This document shows positions 40,856-49,345 of a stretch of DNA of 64,000 nt, one piece after another; the first letter of the stretch is position 1; every line of letters starts with the position of its first letter. A model generated the notes under the pieces. The model made no database searches. It was not told where the DNA came from and saw nothing but the letters and a program-made list of their open reading frames with translations. The DNA comes from Flavobacteriales bacterium. Its GTDB lineage: Bacteria > Bacteroidota > Bacteroidia > Flavobacteriales_D > Crocinitomicaceae. The stretch covers positions 1-64,000 of the forward strand of contig CANFRV010000004.1 of assembly GCA_947449575.1 (NCBI GenBank). The letters are read 5' to 3'. The translations under genes and the position numbers were made by a program.

Positions 40856-41452
40856 TTACTTTGCTCTCGAAGATAAAACAGCAAGAACATCTTCTAGTTT
40901 AAACCCTTTGGCTTGCAAGAGTATTAAATAATGAAACAATAAATCCGCTGATTCATTTAAGAATAAGTCATCATCGGACCCCAAAGCCTCAATTACAACT
41001 TCCACTCCTTCCTCTCCCACTTTTTGAGCTACTTTATTTATTCCTTGTTCGATAAGGGAAGAAACATAGGACTTTTCAGTTGGATTATTGATTCTATCTG
41101 AAATTACATTTTCTAATTGTGCAATAACATCAAAACTCGTTGTTTTCTCTTCGTTCCAACATGTTTTCGTGCCTTTATGACACGTTGGTCCCTTTGCATC
41201 TGCCTTTATTAATAAAGTATCATTGTCACAATCTAAAGAAATAGATTTCAAGTTTAAAAAATTACCACTTTCCTCCCCTTTCACCCAAATTCTATTTTTT
41301 GAGCGAGAGAAAAAAGTAACTAGTTTCGTTTCTATCGTTTGTTGAACAGCCACAGCGTCCATATAGCCAAGCATTAACACTTGTAAGGTTGAATTATCTT
41401 GTACAATGCAAGGAATTAAACCATTACTTTTTTCAAAATTTATTTTATCCAT
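40856..41452 (-). CDS. hisIE: Bifunctional HisIE
   Basis: A 198-residue fusion catalysing steps 2 and 3 of histidine synthesis. The HisI (PRA-cyclohydrolase) half carries the SRSKNRIWVKGEESGN and CHKGTKTCW metal-site motifs. The HisE (PRA-PP pyrophosphatase) half carries SLIEQGINKVAQKVGEEGVEVVIEA. It is the last gene of the his operon, 84 bases after hisF. Confidence 0.95.
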   Translation of the reverse strand: MDKINFEKSNGLIPCIVQDNSTLQVLMLGYMDAVAVQQTIETKLVTFFSRSKNRIWVKGEESGNFLNLKSISLDCDNDTLLIKADAKGPTCHKGTKTCWNEEKTTSFDVIAQLENVISDRINNPTEKSYVSSLIEQGINKVAQKVGEEGVEVVIEALGSDDDLFLNESADLLFHYLILLQAKGFKLEDVLAVLSSRAK

Positions 41453-41536
41453 TTTATTTACTTTTTATTTTGAAGATTTTGATACTTAAATTACATATAA
41501 AATTGATTTTTAAATATTTGAGTTGATTATCATGAA

Positions 41537-42292
41537 TCATATTCTTACATTAATTTTATTTTCTTTCAAATATTCTTTTAAATATGGAATCTCAATTTCC
41601 CCAAAGTGAAAGACACTTGCAGCTAAAGCTGCGTCTATATTTCCCGATTTAAAAACATCTAAAAAATGTTCTTTCAAACCGCAACCTCCAGAGGCGATAA
41701 TTGGGACAGATACCATTTTAGCTACTTTCTCCAAAGCTAGGACAGCAAACCCATTCTTCGTACCATCATGATCCATGGATGTAAAAAGTATTTCACCAGC
41801 ACCTAATTCAACTGCATCTTTCACCCAATTAAATAATTTTAAATCCGTTTGTATTTTCCCACCGCTCAAAAACACAATCCATTCGTCGTCTATTAATTTT
41901 GCATCAACAGCTAACACAACACATTGATTACCAAATTTATCTGATAATTCTCTTATTAATTTAGGATTTCGTACTGCAGACGAGTTAACGCTGATTTTAT
42001 CAGCACCTGCTCTCAGTAGAGCAGCAGCATCATCTACTGAACTTATTCCTCCGCCAACGGTGAATGGAATGTCAATTTCAGAAGCCACTTTTAAAACCAT
42101 ATCAATCATGGTTTTACGCCCTTCTTGCGTCGCTGTAATGTCAAGAAAAACAAGTTCATCTGCACCCATTTTTGAATAGTATTTTGCCAGTTCAACTGGG
42201 TCACCTGCATCTCGTAATTCTTCAAAATTGACACCTTTTACAGTCCTTCCATTTTTAATGTCTAGACAAGGAATTATTCTTTTTTTTACCAT
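41537..42292 (-). CDS. hisF: Imidazole glycerol phosphate synthase subunit HisF
   Basis: A 251-residue TIM barrel cyclase. It has the catalytic Asp in [17 protein letters not shown] and the second Asp region [14 protein letters not shown], with phosphate sites TVGGGISS and IIASGGCG. It works with HisH to form IGP and AICAR. It lies between hisA and hisIE. Confidence 0.97.
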
Positions 42293-42340
42293 ACTTATAT
42301 GAAAATTTTAAAGCTCAATGAATACTAATTTTACACTTTT

Positions 42341-43066
42341 TTATTTCCTTGTATTATATTTTACTAATTCTTTTAAATCAATCTTGTTTTCATAGATTGC
42401 TTTTCCAATAACGACAGCAGGAATTCCATTTTCCTTCAATTTAATGACATCATTGATACAGGAAATACCTCCGCTTGCAATTAAATCGAGGTCGGGATAT
42501 TGATCCATTATTGTTTGATATAAGTGAAAAGAAGGTCCTTGCAGCATCCCATCTTTGGCAATATCCGTGCATAAAACAGTACGAATTCCTCGCAGGTAAA
42601 ATTCTTTTAAGAAATTAAACAAGGATAGGTCGCTTGTTTCCAACCATCCATCAGTAGCGATATTTAATCCTTTTACATCTGCCCCTAAAATAATTCTATC
42701 CGCACCATAATCATTTATCCATTCACACAATAAAATTGGGTTTTTAACAGCCACACTTCCAACCGTAACTTGATCTGCACCAGCATCTAAAACCCTTTTT
42801 AAGTCATCAGTTGATTTAATACCTCCTCCAAAATCAATTTTTAAGTTTGTGTTTTTAGCAATAGATTCAAGAATATTAAAATTCACTACTTTACTAGATT
42901 TTGCCCCATCTAAATCAACTATATGTAAATAATTGAATCCATGATCTTCAAATAATTTCGCTACTTCTAAAGGATTCTCATTATAGATAATTTTTGAATT
43001 GTAATCACCTTTACTCAAACGGACACATTTCCCATCTATTATGTCAATTGCTGGTATAATTTTCAT
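42341..43066 (-). CDS. hisA: Phosphoribosyl-formimino-AICAR ribotide isomerase HisA
   Basis: A 241-residue TIM barrel isomerase. The first catalytic Asp is in IIPAIDIIDGKCVRLSKGD and the second in LCTDIAKDGMLQGP. The phosphate sites are DFGGGIKS and LIASGGIS. It is a homologue of HisF encoded next to it. Confidence 0.96.
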   Translation of the reverse strand: MKIIPAIDIIDGKCVRLSKGDYNSKIIYNENPLEVAKLFEDHGFNYLHIVDLDGAKSSKVVNFNILESIAKNTNLKIDFGGGIKSTDDLKRVLDAGADQVTVGSVAVKNPILLCEWINDYGADRIILGADVKGLNIATDGWLETSDLSLFNFLKEFYLRGIRTVLCTDIAKDGMLQGPSFHLYQTIMDQYPDLDLIASGGISCINDVIKLKENGIPAVVIGKAIYENKIDLKELVKYNTRK

Positions 43067-43082
43067 CTTCTAGTTTTATTAT

Positions 43083-43679
43083 CTAATTTTTAATTTCGTT
43101 CGTCACTAATCCCAAGAATTTAGCTATCATTTTACCTCCTGCTTCACCACTTTTTTCTGGATGAAATTGACAACCATAGAAATTATTTTTCTTCATAGAC
43201 GCTGTAAATTTTGAACCATATTCTACTTCTGAAATCGTAAATTCATTTAATGAAACAAAATAACTATGTACAAAATAGACGTCGGCATTGTCTTCGAGAA
43301 ATATACTTTTGCCGTTCATTAAAGTATTCCAGCCCATATGTGGTATTTTCGGAGCATCGATGAATTTTCTGACTTTTACACCAGAAAAGATATCCAAGCA
43401 ATCCACGTCACCTTCCTCTGTATAACTGCACATCAATTGCATGCCAAGGCAAATTCCTAAAAAAGGTTGTGTCAAAGTAGGAATCAATTTATCCAACCCT
43501 TTTACTTTCAATTGCTCCATAGCAGCTTTAGCATGACCAACACCAGGGAAAATAACAGCGTCTGCAGATTTAATTATTGTGGCGTCGGAAGTAATTATCG
43601 CTTCTACTCCAAGGCGCTTGAGCGCAGAAGAAACAGAAAAAACATTCCCAGAACCGTAATCAATTATCGCTACTATCAT
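43083..43679 (-). CDS. hisH: Imidazole glycerol phosphate synthase subunit HisH
   Basis: A 198-residue class I glutamine amidotransferase that supplies ammonia to HisF. The start is ATG 43677-43679 (MIVAIIDYGSGN); a longer frame runs into hisB. The triad is Cys in FLGICLGMQLM, His in CQFHPEKSG and the following Glu. PGVGHAKAAM is typical. It begins ten bases after the hisB stop. Confidence 0.96.
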   Translation of the reverse strand: MIVAIIDYGSGNVFSVSSALKRLGVEAIITSDATIIKSADAVIFPGVGHAKAAMEQLKVKGLDKLIPTLTQPFLGICLGMQLMCSYTEEGDVDCLDIFSGVKVRKFIDAPKIPHMGWNTLMNGKSIFLEDNADVYFVHSYFVSLNEFTISEVEYGSKFTASMKKNNFYGCQFHPEKSGEAGGKMIAKFLGLVTNEIKN

Positions 43680-43689
43680 ACATCGACTT

Positions 43690-44826
43690 TTATAAAACAC
43701 CTTTTGTACTTGGTAAAATTGCATTTGTACCATTTCTTTTTTTTGCCATTTTAATTGCTTTTGCAAATGCTTTGAAAATTGATTCAATTTTGTGGTGTTC
43801 GTTTGTTCCTTCCACTTTAATATTTAGATTGCATAAGGCCCCATCCGTAAATGATTTAAAAAAATGAAAAAACATTTCAGTAGGCATTTGGCCTATCATT
43901 TCACGTTTAAAATCTGCATCCCAAACTAGCCAATTTCTTCCACCAAAATCAATTGCTACCTGAGCTAAACAATCATCCATTGGTAAACAAAATCCGTATC
44001 TTTCCATTCCAATTTTATTTCCCAACGCTTGTTTAAAACATTCACCTAATGCAATTGCAGTATCCTCAATCGTGTGATGCTCGTCTACTTCTAAATCACC
44101 TTTTACTTGTATATCGAGATCCATTTGACCGTGTCTGCCCAACTGGTCTAGCATATGATCAAAAAAAGCAATTCCTGTATTGATTTTAGTTTTTCCAGTA
44201 CCGTCTAAGTTTAATTTGATGTGGATCTTTGTTTCATTGGTATCTCTTTGTTTATCTACACTTCGGGAACCTAATTTCAAAAAAGTATAAATTTCTTCCC
44301 AATCACATGTTTCAAGTTCGACTATATCAGAAAGCACCTCAGGACTTAAAGAACTTTCATTTTTCCCCACACTTTTATCTATTGACATAAAAATACCTTT
44401 TGCACCTAGATTTTTGGCTAATTCCATATCAGTAATGCGATCCCCTATCACAAATGAATTACCCAAGTCATATTCACCATTCAAATATTTTGTCAGTAAT
44501 CCTGTTCTAGGTTTCCGCGTGTCAGCATTCTCTGAAGGAAACGTCCTATCAATACAAACATCTGAGAAAATTATTCCTTCAGAAGCAAGCGAATCAATCA
44601 TGAATGTTTGAGGCCCAATAAAAGATTCATACGTAAATTCCTTTGTCCCTAATCCATCTTGATTAGTTACCATAACTAACTCATAATCTAATTCATAAGC
44701 TATTTTACCTAAACCCGAAAACACCTTTGGATAAAACTTAAGTTTTTCAAAACTATCCACCTGATAGTCAATTGGTGGCTCAATTAACAAGACACCATCT
44801 CTGTCAATAAACAAGACTTTCTTCAT
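43690..44826 (-). CDS. hisB: Bifunctional HisB: histidinol-phosphatase and IGP dehydratase
   Basis: A 378-residue fusion. The N-terminal HAD phosphatase (about 1-165) has the nucleophile motif [18 protein letters not shown] and [19 protein letters not shown]. The C-terminal IGP dehydratase (about 190-378) has [43 protein letters not shown] and [16 protein letters not shown] with the metal-binding His pairs. In the phosphatase half, the Cys/His zinc knuckle of enteric HisB is not preserved: the matching segment reads [17 protein letters not shown] with a single Cys. Both steps 6 and 8 of the pathway should be covered. It starts six bases after hisC. Confidence 0.95.
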
Positions 44827-44832
44827 ATTTTT

Positions 44833-45861
44833 TTATTTAAATTCAATTAATTTCTCGAGGAGTAAATTATTCTCATCGATTGTACCAATGGTAACACGAA
44901 TACAATTTGCGCACAAAGGTTGATTCGTTCTATTTCTAGCAATTATCTTATTAATAATTAAATAGTTATACAACTTATCTGCATCTAACACTTTAATTAA
45001 AATGAAATTTGAATCACTTGGATAAACTTTTAAAATGTTTCCTATTTTTTGCATTTCGAGAGTAATCCTTTCTCTTTCTTCAAGTAAATAATTAATTTGT
45101 TTTCTTATCAATTCGCTATCTTTTATCCTTATAATAGCTTCATTTTGAGTGAGTTGACTAATATTATAAGGAGGTTTAACTTTATTTAGCCATTCAACTA
45201 TTTCAATTGAACCGAAAAGAAGTCCTAAACGCAAACCAGCTAAACCATAAGCTTTTGAGAATGTCTGCAAAACAATAAGATTGGGATAATTATCTAGCTC
45301 ACCAAGCAAGGTTTCCTCTTGAGAAAAATCAATATATGCCTCATCTACAACTACTAGACAGCTATTTGATTGAAGTATAGAAATAATTTCTGATTTTGGA
45401 AATGCGTTCCCTGTTGGGTTATTAGGTGAACAAAGTAAAATCATTTTCGCATCAACAGCAGCCTCGTTCAATTTTTCAACATTCAAGCTATAATCTGGAT
45501 TTAAAAGTACTTCACAGATTTCAATCTGGTTTATTTTTGCGGAAACTTTATACATCCCATACGAAGGACTTATCGTCACAACCTTGTCTATTGTTGGGAT
45601 ACAAAACAATCTGAAAAGTAAATCAATACATTCATCGGATCCATTACCCAAAAATATTTTAGATGAAGACACACCTTTGGTAACAGAAACCTTCTCCTTT
45701 AAATTCTTTTGAAGAGGATCTGGGTAACGATTAACACCATTTTCAAAAGGATTCTCATTGGCATCTAAAAATACACCTTCACTCCCTGAGTATTCATCAC
45801 GAGCAGAAGAATACGGTTGTAGATCACGTAAATCGGGACGAATTAATTCTAATATATTCAT
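44833..45861 (-). CDS. hisC: Histidinol-phosphate aminotransferase HisC
   Basis: A 342-residue fold-type I PLP enzyme. It shows LDANENPFENGVNRYPDP, FLGNGSDECIDLL, CSPNNPTGNAFP, VVDEAYIDFS and the PLP lysine in LQTFSKAYGLAGLRLG. It transaminates imidazole acetol phosphate with glutamate. The start codon overlaps the hisD stop by four bases. Confidence 0.96.
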   Translation of the reverse strand: MNILELIRPDLRDLQPYSSARDEYSGSEGVFLDANENPFENGVNRYPDPLQKNLKEKVSVTKGVSSSKIFLGNGSDECIDLLFRLFCIPTIDKVVTISPSYGMYKVSAKINQIEICEVLLNPDYSLNVEKLNEAAVDAKMILLCSPNNPTGNAFPKSEIISILQSNSCLVVVDEAYIDFSQEETLLGELDNYPNLIVLQTFSKAYGLAGLRLGLLFGSIEIVEWLNKVKPPYNISQLTQNEAIIRIKDSELIRKQINYLLEERERITLEMQKIGNILKVYPSDSNFILIKVLDADKLYNYLIINKIIARNRTNQPLCANCIRVTIGTIDENNLLLEKLIEFK

Positions 45862-47141
45862 TTTCTTAACGCATTTAATCGAACAGTGATGGCATTTTTG
45901 TGAGCGTCTAAACCCTCTGCTTCCGCCATTATTTTAACAGTTTTACCAATATTAACAATTCCAATTTCTGATATTTTTTGAAAAGTAATTTTCTTAACAA
46001 ATGAATCCACTGAAACACCTGAATATTGCTTCGCAAAGCCGTTCGTCGGAAGCGTATGATTTGTACCAGAGGCATAATCTCCAGCACTTTCAGGAGTATA
46101 TTGACCTATAAAAACAGAACCAGCATTTACAATAGAAGGGATTATTTCAGTATTAACACTTGTATTTAAAATAAGATGTTCAGGAGCGTATATATTGATA
46201 ATGGAAGGAATAGACTCCTTCTTAGTCAAGATTGCAATTGAATTGACTAGCGCCGATTTTGTTATATTCCCCCTTGATAAATTGACCAATTGTTTACCTA
46301 TTTGTACTTGAACCTCTTCAATCTTAGCTTCTTGCGTAGACACTAGAATAACTTGGCTATCAATACCATGCTCAGCTTGCGATAGTAAATCAGCTGCAAC
46401 AAACTCAGCATTCGCAAATTCATCGCAAACCACCATTACCTCACTTGGTCCAGCAGGCATATCAATTGAAACATTCAAACGTTGTGCGTATTGTTTAGCA
46501 GCCGTTACATATTGATTACCAGGCCCGAAAATCTTATAAACCTTCTTAATTGATTCAGTTCCATAGGTCATTGCCGCAATTGCCTGCGCTCCACCCACTT
46601 TAAATATTTTAGTTATCCCAACGAGATTTGCAGCATATAAAATCGCAGCATTCACTTCCCCATTTTTGTCAGGAGGCGTGCATAAGATTACTTCTTTGCA
46701 TCCTGCAATCTTTGCAGGTATACCCAACATGAGCACAGTTGAAAATAGAGGAGCTGTCCCTCCTGGAATATATAAACCAACTTTTTCAATACCTACAGAT
46801 TTTCTCCAACAAGTAACACCTTCCATTGTTTCAACTTCGACAACTTTTTCTTTTTGTGTCGAGTGAAATTTTTCAATATTTACTGCTGCCAGATTAATAG
46901 CCTGTTTTAGCTCAGATGGCACTTTTGTTTCAACCTCGATCATTTCTTCCTTGCTCACTTCCAAAGAAGAAAGTGAAATAGCATCATATTTCAATGTCAA
47001 TGCTTTTAAAGCATCGTCACCATCCTTTTTAACGTTTTCAAATACTTCCGCAATTAAAGAATCCAAATCAATGGATTCGATCTCCTTCCTTCGCAAAATA
47101 ACTTCAAGTTCAATTTCTGAAGGATATTTATATAATTTCAT
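45858..47141 (-). CDS. hisD: Histidinol dehydrogenase HisD
   Basis: A 427-residue zinc enzyme oxidising histidinol to histidine in two NAD-linked steps. Motifs include VGLYIPGGTAPLFSTVLML, GPGNQYVTAAKQYAQ, DMPAGPSEVMV, LLSQAEHGIDSQVIL (zinc Gln/His), and SAGDYASGTNHTLPT with the catalytic and metal His. It overlaps hisC by four bases. Confidence 0.97.
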   Translation of the reverse strand: MKLYKYPSEIELEVILRRKEIESIDLDSLIAEVFENVKKDGDDALKALTLKYDAISLSSLEVSKEEMIEVETKVPSELKQAINLAAVNIEKFHSTQKEKVVEVETMEGVTCWRKSVGIEKVGLYIPGGTAPLFSTVLMLGIPAKIAGCKEVILCTPPDKNGEVNAAILYAANLVGITKIFKVGGAQAIAAMTYGTESIKKVYKIFGPGNQYVTAAKQYAQRLNVSIDMPAGPSEVMVVCDEFANAEFVAADLLSQAEHGIDSQVILVSTQEAKIEEVQVQIGKQLVNLSRGNITKSALVNSIAILTKKESIPSIINIYAPEHLILNTSVNTEIIPSIVNAGSVFIGQYTPESAGDYASGTNHTLPTNGFAKQYSGVSVDSFVKKITFQKISEIGIVNIGKTVKIMAEAEGLDAHKNAITVRLNALRK

Positions 47142-47168: not shown

Positions 47169-48026
47169 TTAATTTACCATCTTCTCAATCGGCACCACAA
47201 GAATACCTTCAGCTCCCGCTTCTTTTAAAGCATCAATGGTATCCCAAAATTGTTCTTCACCAATTACAGAATGAACAGAACTCCAACCTGAAACAGCAAG
47301 TGGCAGTATGGTTGGGCTTCTCATCCCCGGAAGAATTTCTGTGATTTCTTTTAACCGATCATTAGGCGCATTTAAAAGAATATATTTAGAATTCTTAGAT
47401 GCTAAAACAGCCTTTATCCTAAAAACCAATTTATCCAGAATACCTTTTTTTATTGTAGATAAATTTGAATTACAAACTAATACAGCTTGCGAACGTAAAA
47501 TAACTTCCAACTCCTTTAAACCATTCATAAACAAAGTGTTTCCTGAAGATACAATATCACAAATCCCATCCGCTAAACCAATATTTGGAGCTATTTCAAC
47601 CGAACCAGAAATAGTGTGAATATCAGCGTTTACATTACTTTCATCTAAATATTTCTGCAGCGTAACGGGATAAGAAGTAGCGATTTTTTTACCTTCGAAA
47701 TCTTTTACACAAAGTATCTCTGAAGATTTAGGTACTGCCAAACTCACTTTACATTTAGAAAAACCAAGAGGTAGAAGTGAGGTAATATCACCCCCTTTTT
47801 CAATTAATAGATTTTCACCAACAATGGCTAAATCTACCACTCCATCAATTATATACTGAGGAATATCACTGTTTCGCAAGAATAAGATTTCCAATGGGAA
47901 ATTTGACACTTCTGACTTTAAAGCTCCATTACTCGTTTCAATCTTTAATCCACAATCTCGCAATAATTGAAGTGAATCATCTAATAATCTCCCTGATTTC
48001 TGAATTGCAATCGTTAATTTATTCAT
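47169..48026 (-). CDS. hisG: ATP phosphoribosyltransferase HisG, long form
   Basis: A 285-residue long-form HisG with its own C-terminal regulatory ACT-like domain (about 210-285, GWSSVHSVIGEEQFWDTI), so it needs no HisZ. The start is ATG 48024-48026 (MNKLTIAIQKSGRL); an upstream in-frame TTG lies in the terminator tail and is rejected. Catalytic parts include LDDSLQLLRDCG, VDLAIVGENLL, KIATSYPVT and the PRPP loop ISGSVEIAPNIGLADGICDIV. It catalyses the first, feedback-regulated step. It is preceded by a leader peptide and terminator (attenuator). Confidence 0.96.
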   Translation of the reverse strand: MNKLTIAIQKSGRLLDDSLQLLRDCGLKIETSNGALKSEVSNFPLEILFLRNSDIPQYIIDGVVDLAIVGENLLIEKGGDITSLLPLGFSKCKVSLAVPKSSEILCVKDFEGKKIATSYPVTLQKYLDESNVNADIHTISGSVEIAPNIGLADGICDIVSSGNTLFMNGLKELEVILRSQAVLVCNSNLSTIKKGILDKLVFRIKAVLASKNSKYILLNAPNDRLKEITEILPGMRSPTILPLAVSGWSSVHSVIGEEQFWDTIDALKEAGAEGILVVPIEKMVN

Positions 48027-48063
48027 AATATAAAATTTAAAACTTAGCAATTCAGAAGGGCAC

Positions 48064-48095
48064 AAAAAAACCCACTTGGATTGCCAAGCGGGTTT
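48064..48095 (-). terminator. Attenuator terminator ahead of hisG
   Basis: On the minus strand AAACCCGCTTGG and CCAAGTGGGTTT form a 12-base stem (one G-T pair) with a CAAT loop, then a run of T. It lies between the His-rich leader and hisG. Its first arm contains CGCTTG (48090-48085), which can pair instead with CAAGCG in the leader peptide codons (48139-48134), giving an antiterminator. Confidence 0.88.
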
Positions 48096-48127
48096 GAAAA
48101 AATATGTATGATCATCGCATACTCATT

Positions 48128-48175
48128 TCATAACGCTTGAAGGCGAATAAAATGATGATGTAATTGTTGTTTCAT
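48128..48175 (-). CDS. hisL: His operon leader peptide
   Basis: A 15-residue open frame, MKQQLHHHFIRLQAL, with three consecutive His codons (CAT CAT CAT). It is ten or so bases from the likely transcript start and upstream of a terminator and hisG. If ribosomes stall at the His codons, the downstream CAAGCG codons stay free and can pair with the first terminator arm, so the operon is read. If the ribosome reaches the stop it covers CAAGCG and the terminator forms. This is the standard logic of histidine attenuation. The mechanism here is inferred, but all the parts are visible. Confidence 0.85.
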   Translation of the reverse strand: MKQQLHHHFIRLQAL

Positions 48176-48191
48176 TTTTAAAATCATAATG

Positions 48192-48199
48192 CAAATGTA
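48192..48199 (-). promoter_or_regulatory. -7 promoter box of the his operon
   Basis: TACATTTG on the minus strand, 16 bases ahead of the leader ATG. The -33 region is only T-rich. Confidence 0.55.
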
Positions 48200-48373
48200 C
48201 ACTATTTTTTAATGTTAAAAAAAATATCTGCTTAAATTCAAAAAATAAATTATTTTATTTACTGAATTAAATCATTTATTAACAGTATTTTAAAATAAAA
48301 TATACAATAATAAAACTAGGACAATTTATATAAAGAAGACAAAATAAGGTGCGTGAATTTCCTGGAAAAAGTT

Positions 48374-49345
48374 TTATTTTTTTAATAATTGAGCAAAATC
48401 TTTCGCGAAATAAGTTAAGATTCCATCTGCTCCTGCCCTTCTAATACTTAATAACATTTCTGACATCGTAGCTTCGTAATTTAACCATCCATTTTGTGAT
48501 GCGGCATAAACCATAGCACATTCACCGCTAACATTGTAAGCCGTAATAGGAATATTAAAATTCTCTTTTAACATGTGAATAATATCTAAATAACACAAAG
48601 CAGGTTTCACCATTAAAAAATCTGCCCCTTCATTGAAATCTAATTCAGCTTCCAATAAGGCCTCTCTTTTATTAGCAGGATTCATCTGATATGTTTTCTT
48701 ATCTCCAGATTTAGGTGCAGAATTTAAAGCATCTCTAAAAGGTCCATAAAAGGCACTTGCATATTTCACAGTATACGACATAATACTAACATCAGTATAT
48801 CCATTTTTATCTAATTCATTTCTAATAAAGCCTACTCTACCATCCATCATATCTGAAGGTCCTATAATATCTACTCCTGCTTGAGCTTGAGCGACTGCCA
48901 TTTTCGCAAGAATAGGTAAAGTTTCATCGTTCAATATTTTCCCATTTTGCACTAAACCATCATGACCATCGGAAGAATATGGGTCCATCGCCACATCACT
49001 CATGATGACAATATCAGGAAATGTTTCTTTTAATTTTCGGATTGCATGCAAATAAAAATTCTCTTCCGCATAACTGTAAGTAGCAGTAATATCTTTTAAA
49101 TGTTCTGATACGGCTGGGAATATGTCAAACGTTTTGACTCCTAAATTTAAACATTGCTCAATTTCAGGAAGTAACAAATCTAAAGACCATCGATAATTAT
49201 TGGGAAGTGATTTAATTTCCGTCTTGATACCTCGTCCATCCTCTAAAAAGATTGGGTAAATTAAGTTTTCAGCGCCTAATTTTGTTTCTTCAACCATAGC
49301 ACGTATTGCAATGCTTTTTCTATTTCTTCGAGGACGATTGTACAT
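48374..49345 (-). CDS. hemB: Porphobilinogen synthase (ALA dehydratase)
   Basis: A 323-residue TIM barrel that condenses two 5-aminolevulinate molecules in tetrapyrrole synthesis. It shows SYTVKYASAFYGPFRDALNSAP and FLMVKPALCYLDII, which hold the two catalytic Lys. The metal segment reads MSDVAMDPYSSDGHDGL, with Asp where the zinc-type enzymes have Cys. It should therefore be of the magnesium-dependent type. The gene is monocistronic and divergent from the following lipoprotein gene. Confidence 0.95.
   Translation of the reverse strand: MYNRPRRNRKSIAIRAMVEETKLGAENLIYPIFLEDGRGIKTEIKSLPNNYRWSLDLLLPEIEQCLNLGVKTFDIFPAVSEHLKDITATYSYAEENFYLHAIRKLKETFPDIVIMSDVAMDPYSSDGHDGLVQNGKILNDETLPILAKMAVAQAQAGVDIIGPSDMMDGRVGFIRNELDKNGYTDVSIMSYTVKYASAFYGPFRDALNSAPKSGDKKTYQMNPANKREALLEAELDFNEGADFLMVKPALCYLDIIHMLKENFNIPITAYNVSGECAMVYAASQNGWLNYEATMSEMLLSIRRAGADGILTYFAKDFAQLLKK

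Follow-up and report, generated by a model that had tools for sequence, protein, structure and literature searches.

Among the closest described counterparts of the element reported here is the hisL leader of E. coli and Salmonella, in which a short leader peptide with a run of His codons and alternative terminator and antiterminator structures stand upstream of the his operon. A comparative genomics study by Vitreschak et al. (2004, FEMS Microbiol Lett) reportedly proposed candidate attenuators mainly in proteobacteria, with some in Bacteroidetes/Chlorobi. The enterobacterial his leader peptide has 18 residues, with seven consecutive His, according to the accessible part of PMC3896937. Leaders of Bacillus hisS and hisZ (Naville and Gautheret 2010, PMC2965389) likewise combine a His run with a premature terminator outside the proteobacteria, but they belong to Firmicutes and precede other genes than those studied here; before that find, as the accessible text of the paper has it, no leader-peptide system was known beyond Proteobacteria and Actinobacteria. 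The available text on F. psychrophilum reports 'strong clues' for leader-peptide attenuation before amino-acid biosynthesis operons (PMC9723704), and therefore the idea is already published for flavobacteria. This is control of the same type in the same phylum, but the main text of that paper contains neither 'his operon' nor 'histidine' and, in the part available and unlike the present case, gives no pairing or covariation. Short frames reminiscent of leader peptides have been noted in Bacteroides thetaiotaomicron (PMC7366714, in excerpt), leader genes near start codons have been surveyed in many phyla (PMC4833913, in excerpt), and a his gene study of this superphylum mentions attenuation once, for enterobacteria, with 'leader' absent from its accessible text (PMC8305728). 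Among titles and the beginnings of abstracts, mostly of papers outside subscription, we found no description of the his leader or the pairing presented here. The present his leader is a further case of the established leader-peptide attenuation of amino-acid operons, and similar predicted His leaders precede his genes in many related groups.

The leader lies in a window (the whole 64,000-nucleotide stretch that was analysed) containing an eight-gene his operon on the minus strand. By NCBIfam models, hisG is the first gene (47169..48026, ATG at 48026; a long form with a C-terminal domain, TIGR00070 and TIGR03455), and hisD, hisC, bifunctional hisB, hisH, hisA, hisF and hisIE follow (40856..47141; NCBIfam models and open reading frames). 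Upstream on the minus strand is hemB (49345-48374; NCBIfam models), with 347 bases between hemB and hisG. Compared with hisL of E. coli and Salmonella, the leader in this interval has three His codons rather than seven, a promoter of the Bacteroidota type and probably a leaderless start. Direct reading of the sequence confirmed the promoter box proposed in the initial annotation, a sigma-A -7 box (TACATTTG, 48199-48192, minus strand) of the Bacteroidota type (consensus TAnnTTTG), and an exact-pattern search also found the exact box in relatives, again four bases from the leader start. The consensus promoter scan is of the sigma-70 type and Bacteroidota promoters are outside its reach; the box was judged by eye and by exact pattern. 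No terminator was detected between hemB and the leader in a scan of 47500-48800, and since hemB is on the same strand, read-through transcripts could also enter the leader.

The coordinates given in the initial annotation for the frame, the His codons, the pairing segments and the hairpin all agreed with our direct reading, and the one point that we would revise is where the leader starts. That annotation described a 15-codon frame, ATG AAA CAA CAA TTA CAT CAT CAT TTT ATT CGC CTT CAA GCG TTA TGA (48175-48128), of which the stop and the three consecutive His codons stand; the latter (CAT CAT CAT, 48152..48160) are the putative control codons, and His runs are kept in relatives. An in-frame ATG at 48187, 12 bases 5' of the ATG at 48175 and separated from the -7 box by four bases, extends the frame to 19 codons and TGA (48128..48187, minus strand), encoding MILKMKQQLHHHFIRLQAL. 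The longer frame is the likelier one because of this four-base spacing and because a relative (L032, leader MKTKIEQQLHHHFHYSHQAL) shares both the spacing and the nine codons ahead of the His run. As the -7 box occupies -12 to -5 in F. psychrophilum (PMC9723704, in the part available), the four-base gap would place +1 on the A of the ATG at 48187, and the mRNA probably begins at the leader AUG itself, which would make the leader leaderless. Dinucleotide shuffling of the 347 bases between hemB and hisG, repeated 2000 times, never produced a short frame with three consecutive His on the his strand. Over the whole 64-kb window, one such frame was observed against 0-3 in each of 30 shuffles, so a run of three His is by itself not rare on that scale and the case rests on position and conservation. 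In position, the leader is a predicted short frame rich in codons for the operon's product amino acid, ahead of the biosynthetic operon.

An intrinsic terminator stands between this leader and the first structural gene. The strong terminator that had been noted before hisG is borne out by scan, by fold and by covariation of its helix in 29 aligned relatives: the hairpin, AAACCCGCTTGG-CAAT-CCAAGTGGGTTT (48068..48095, minus strand), has 12 pairs, six of them G-C, and a loop of 4, is followed by a U run and ends 41 bases before hisG. It is the sole terminator-like site in 47500-48800 (shuffle mean 0.4). The segment 48120-48060 folds at -17.9 kcal/mol and 48190-48060 at -33.5 kcal/mol (z -3.98), with no equally low value in 200 shuffles; the part running from the first His codon to the terminator has a z of -4.99. 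When the 3' terminator arm is left out of the fold, an antiterminator is predicted instead (-14.4 kcal/mol). This alternative helix draws on the terminator's 5' arm: region 2, CAAGCG (48134..48139, minus strand), lies within the last leader codons and forms the antiterminator 5' arm, and region 3, CGCUUG (CGCTTG in the DNA, 48085..48090, minus strand), is common to antiterminator and terminator. A protector hairpin is also predicted, with region 1 (UCAUUUUAU, 48147..48155, minus strand), which overlaps the end of the His codons, as its 5' arm and AUGAAAUGA (48123..48131, minus strand) as its 3' arm. Conservation of the protector hairpin across relatives is a weakly supported prediction (17/85 leaders at p<=0.05, mean score 14.7 vs 12.1 in shuffles; p 0.18 in the window). 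Rfam's His_leader, which we take to be RF00514, was absent here both at the gathering score and among the 13 matches listed up to E 10. Weak Rfam matches in the leader, the best by E-value being to LhrC (E 0.0035; 31.3 bits, where the gathering score is 110), were set aside as chance resemblance to a short transcript with a terminator at its end.

Conservation upstream of hisG was examined in two overlapping collections (L001/L034 and L015/L114, for example, are shared). One comprises 66 hisG loci from the family to which the window belongs; 150 genomes were searched, 67 of them bear hisG, and 65 of these supplied the loci, the remainder being the window's own genome and one cut-off match; the other comprises 80 named hisG loci, the best 80 of 395. 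With the window, these 146 loci make 147 entries, of which 144 have a His-run short frame before hisG (115 distinct leader DNAs, 105 distinct peptides). The frame lies within the last 250 bases in 142 of the 143 entries having at least 200 upstream bases; the opposite strand gives 4 such frames, and five shuffles give 5-12. In L031 and L113, in which no frame was found, the contigs end 129 bases upstream of hisG; in L007, a terminator is present and the His-run frame was not found upstream of hisG, which may be a leader loss or a sequence error. The HisG of L031 is 96% identical to that of the window, and the next best named match is an uncultured Flavobacteriales at 80%; this MAG is labelled Chryseobacterium gleum, possibly a mislabel.

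Among the 144 entries with a His leader, the first detector called a terminator in 137, one of them wrongly, as the hairpin in L040 spans the stop codon and is no terminator. Five of the seven that it missed carry a terminator, seen with the second detector in L037 and L140 and by eye, with a mismatch or bulge, in L136, L139 and L141. By detectors and by eye, L040, L065 and L089 are the only ones of the 144 in which no terminator was found. In L040, an inverted repeat, ATTCCTCC-TGA-GGAGGAAT, surrounds the stop codon. His leaders with no detected terminator were also seen in L183, L186, L192 and L232 (family f3) and in L233 and L234 (f8); together with L040 and L065, several of these leaders end in or beside short inverted repeats at the stop codon. 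The comparison with relatives that the initial annotation had proposed as a check thus finds both the His run and the terminator kept.

The pairing of region 2 with region 3 was tested as 7 alignment columns in 29 distinct leaders, hand-picked for diversity (33 were listed from the 144, and L006, L046, L124 and L133 were dropped). In these rows, 98.0% of cells are paired, and sliding the partner lowers pairing to 47.0% at most. Fifteen cells have changed on both sides, against a shuffle mean of 3.4 and with none of 500 shuffles as high, although kinship among the sequences inflates such counts, which are therefore not independent events, and 12 of the 15 fall in a single column pair (A-U 14, G-C 12, G-U 3). 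Both-sided change is seen in 3 of the 7 pairs (3/500 shuffles as high) and the covariation score is 0.302 (0/500 as high), whereas the number of further pair types is unexceptional (132/500). The terminator helix in the same 29 rows is 99.1% paired, with 30 double-changed cells. At the column that holds those 12 double-changed cells, regions 2, 3 and 4 read A/T/A in 12 rows and G/C/G in 12 and are mixed in 5, and such change as a set is expected where one segment must pair with either of two partners. The sequence elements themselves, their conservation and the covariation of both alternative helices are direct observations. The CAAGCG/CGCTTG pairing thus passed the proposed check, being conserved with both-sided changes in an arm that also co-varies with the 3' terminator arm; it had been presented as specific to this locus, and we find instead a design conserved across relatives.

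An alignment-free test gave a similar picture. The starting set held 117 distinct leader-terminator stretches, from which any row lacking a detected terminator, or having its hairpin ahead of the stop, had been dropped; collapsing leaders that share both region 2 and arm left 85. On average, the best score for region 2:3 is 16.9 in these leaders vs 11.3 in dinucleotide shuffles, and it reaches p<=0.05 in 65 of the 85, with 20 above that threshold; for the window, p=0.013. Four arm types occur: A, CGCTTG (24 leaders); B, CGTCTGA (21); C, GCTTACC (26); and D, CGTTTGA (14). When arms were swapped, type C leaders scored 18.7 with their own arms vs 11.5-11.9 on others, and type A leaders 16.6 vs 10.7-12.6; type B leaders did nearly as well with type A arms (15.3) as with their own (15.5), and type D leaders slightly better (16.6 vs 16.3). 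Three of the four types thus have similar arms, B and D being exchangeable with A to some extent. Spacing is more regular relative to the His run than to the stop. The median distance from the run to the start of region 2 is 13 bases (sd 3.3, range 5-28 in the 85 leaders), whereas the position of region 2 relative to the stop codon is -6 (sd 6.1, range -14 to +8); in the window, CAAGCG starts 12 bases past the last His codon and ends 6 before the final base of the stop codon. A register tied to the stall site more than to the stop favours a mechanism based on ribosome stalling. Given the size of a ribosome footprint, this spacing would leave the antiterminator arm free when the ribosome sits on the control codons and covered when it sits at the stop.

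Collectively, the conserved His run, the terminator and the co-varying pairing support the attenuation reading of the initial annotation, and we consider it very probable that the his operon is controlled by a ribosome-mediated transcription attenuator. From these elements we infer a start site, ribosome stalling, termination and a response to histidine, arranged as follows. Transcription would start at or beside 48187, and a ribosome would load on the leaderless, or nearly leaderless, AUG and trail RNA polymerase. With ample His-tRNA, the ribosome would reach the stop and cover CAAGCG in region 2, and the terminator would form. When His-tRNA is short, the ribosome would stall on the His codons with its front edge short of region 2, which would then be free to pair with region 3, the terminator 5' arm, so that transcription would continue into hisG. 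On an RNA that has loaded no ribosome, region 2 would be held by the predicted protector hairpin, which includes His codons, and the terminator would form by default.

Other arrangements of these parts can be envisaged. The hairpin could be the terminator of hemB, with hisG transcribed from its own promoter further downstream: hemB, with its end at 48374, is on the same strand, no other terminator was found between it and hisG, and TAAGTTTT at 48046-48039, between the hairpin and hisG, agrees with the -7 box at 7 of 8 positions. However, the interval from hemB to the hairpin holds both the His leader and an exact -7 box, no exact TAnnTTTG occurs between the hairpin and hisG, and the hairpin arm co-varies with the leader; we give this arrangement a very slim chance. 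Slimmer still is the prospect that the operon is controlled by a histidine T-box or another ligand-binding riboswitch, with the His run a by-product. In some phyla, hisS is preceded by a T-box, and an element resembling a T-box has been proposed before Corynebacterium hisD (PMC2965389 and PMC3896937, in the parts available). Here, however, Rfam gives no cis-regulatory family at its gathering score, the only matches at that level being two tRNAs elsewhere in the window; no T-box is among the 13 Rfam matches listed up to E 10; and relatives keep the His run within a frame read as translated.

We regard it as equally improbable that the leader acts on hisG translation or mRNA decay instead of termination. 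Some relatives do keep a His leader with no detected terminator, and such a leader can therefore apparently act in another way; in the window, however, and in all but 3 of the 144 entries (L040, L065 and L089), a terminator found by detector or by eye follows the leader, and it co-varies in the 29 aligned rows. Transcription attenuation thus remains the reading that we prefer for the his operon of the window.

The window's own genome carries a second candidate of this kind. At L255:346-470, a -7 box (TACATTTG) and a leader, MKNSFNIVIVILVIIIQLIN, are followed by a terminator and then by ilvE-ilvD, and this branched-chain leader has a predicted layout similar to that of the his leader. Its hairpin is built around GGTCTTTCTC-AAATA-GAGAAGGCC and is followed by nine T's. 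GAGAAAG, adjoining the leader stop, is complementary to CTTTCTC in the hairpin arm, and the two pair in the predicted fold without the remaining 3' arm (-11.9 kcal/mol, z -1.57); taken whole, the ilv leader has a fold no more stable than that of its shuffles (z -0.18). A search of the same genome for further leaders with a simple run pattern found none at L256 (homoserine dehydrogenase) or at L257 (a weak match to the anthranilate synthase N-terminal family), and leuA gave no match in this check.

We also surveyed the phylum more widely. Of 296 sampled genomes, 252 have hisG, and 90 loci were taken (the 30 best-scoring and 60 picked across families), of which 88 were placed and two (L213 and L229) were not. 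A His-rich short frame is found in the last 500 bases before hisG in 70 of the 88, and within 250 bases in 66, compared with 2 on the opposite strand and 3-8 in five shuffles; the sample favours high-scoring hisG, and a few of the 70 are doubtful (e.g. L220). No leader was found in the region before hisG in f13, f15, f17, f19 and f35, whose hisG is 23-32% identical, or in f14, f18, f25 and f47, at 47-50% identity over the compared stretch, the gene start being less certain in divergent loci; f21, f28 and f29 are mixed. By the second detector, from which all terminator counts in this sample come, a terminator is present in 41 of the 70 loci with a leader. Its distribution by family is uneven: 5/5 in f4, 7/7 in f6, 4/4 in f7, 2/2 in f11, 12/12 in f16, 4/4 in f34 and 2/4 in f8, with none detected in f3 (0/4), f10 (0/2) or f23 (0/16).

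Family f23 is the largest of these exceptions. With 18 loci beyond the initial 16, all 34 of its loci carry a His-rich leader, and the second detector found no intrinsic terminator in any of the 31 that were scanned (L149-L153, L158, L160, L163, L166, L171, L199, L201, L204, L210, L211, L238-L241 and L243-L254). L148, L237 and L242 bear leaders but are outside this count, L148 because the frame picked there was on the wrong strand, and L237 and L242 having four His, below the floor of 5; leaders within it have 5-11 His. In 25 of the 31, the start codon (19 GTG, 6 ATG) lies 4 or 5 bases past a TAnnTTT box, for which reason the f23 leaders look leaderless. In the 70 bases past the leader stop, G makes up 6.5% and C 24.5%, a C/G ratio of 3.75. 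The ratio ahead of these leaders is 0.98; it is 0.68 from stop to terminator in the set that has terminators, and 1.23 ahead of 105 mechanically called long frames in f23 loci. In seven of these loci (L149-L153, L158 and L160), a TGTCC...GGACA block within the leader frame might fold into a hairpin. A hairpin over the leader stop in f23 (GTGC...GCAC and variants) is not claimed, as 7 of the 31 reach p<=0.05 against shuffles.

Rho loading sites are typically C-rich, G-poor and unstructured RNA, and the composition of the f23 spacer, which is C-rich, poor in G and also U-rich, suggests that the read-out of its leader differs, perhaps being Rho-dependent; the leader ribosome there would gate Rho or another factor rather than a hairpin. 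A simple Rho view would predict the opposite sign of control, unless a ribosome on the last His codons covers the loading site, and we offer this as a lead. Possible, though on present indications somewhat doubtful, is the broader scheme of an old and widespread Bacteroidota His leader whose actuator has been swapped, an intrinsic terminator in the lineage of the window and in many others, and Rho or another factor in f23 and probably f3. If true, one sensor would have been conserved while its actuator was exchanged, and many members would be leaderless attenuators.

Attenuation of the leader-peptide type, as established in enterobacterial cases, needs the leader ribosome to be close to RNA polymerase, and conservation of the attenuator is therefore indirect evidence for coupling of transcription and translation on these leaders. 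Altogether, this study provides a base-resolved, covariation-backed his attenuator in a phylum with non-standard promoters and translation start, Bacteroidota-type features including an unusual sigma factor and translation start that does not rely on Shine-Dalgarno sequences (PMC9723704, in the part available). The his leader aids the annotation of missed small genes and points to relatives in which the same sensor appears to use another type of termination. These terminator-less relatives are the unexpected part of the finding and are worth pursuing.
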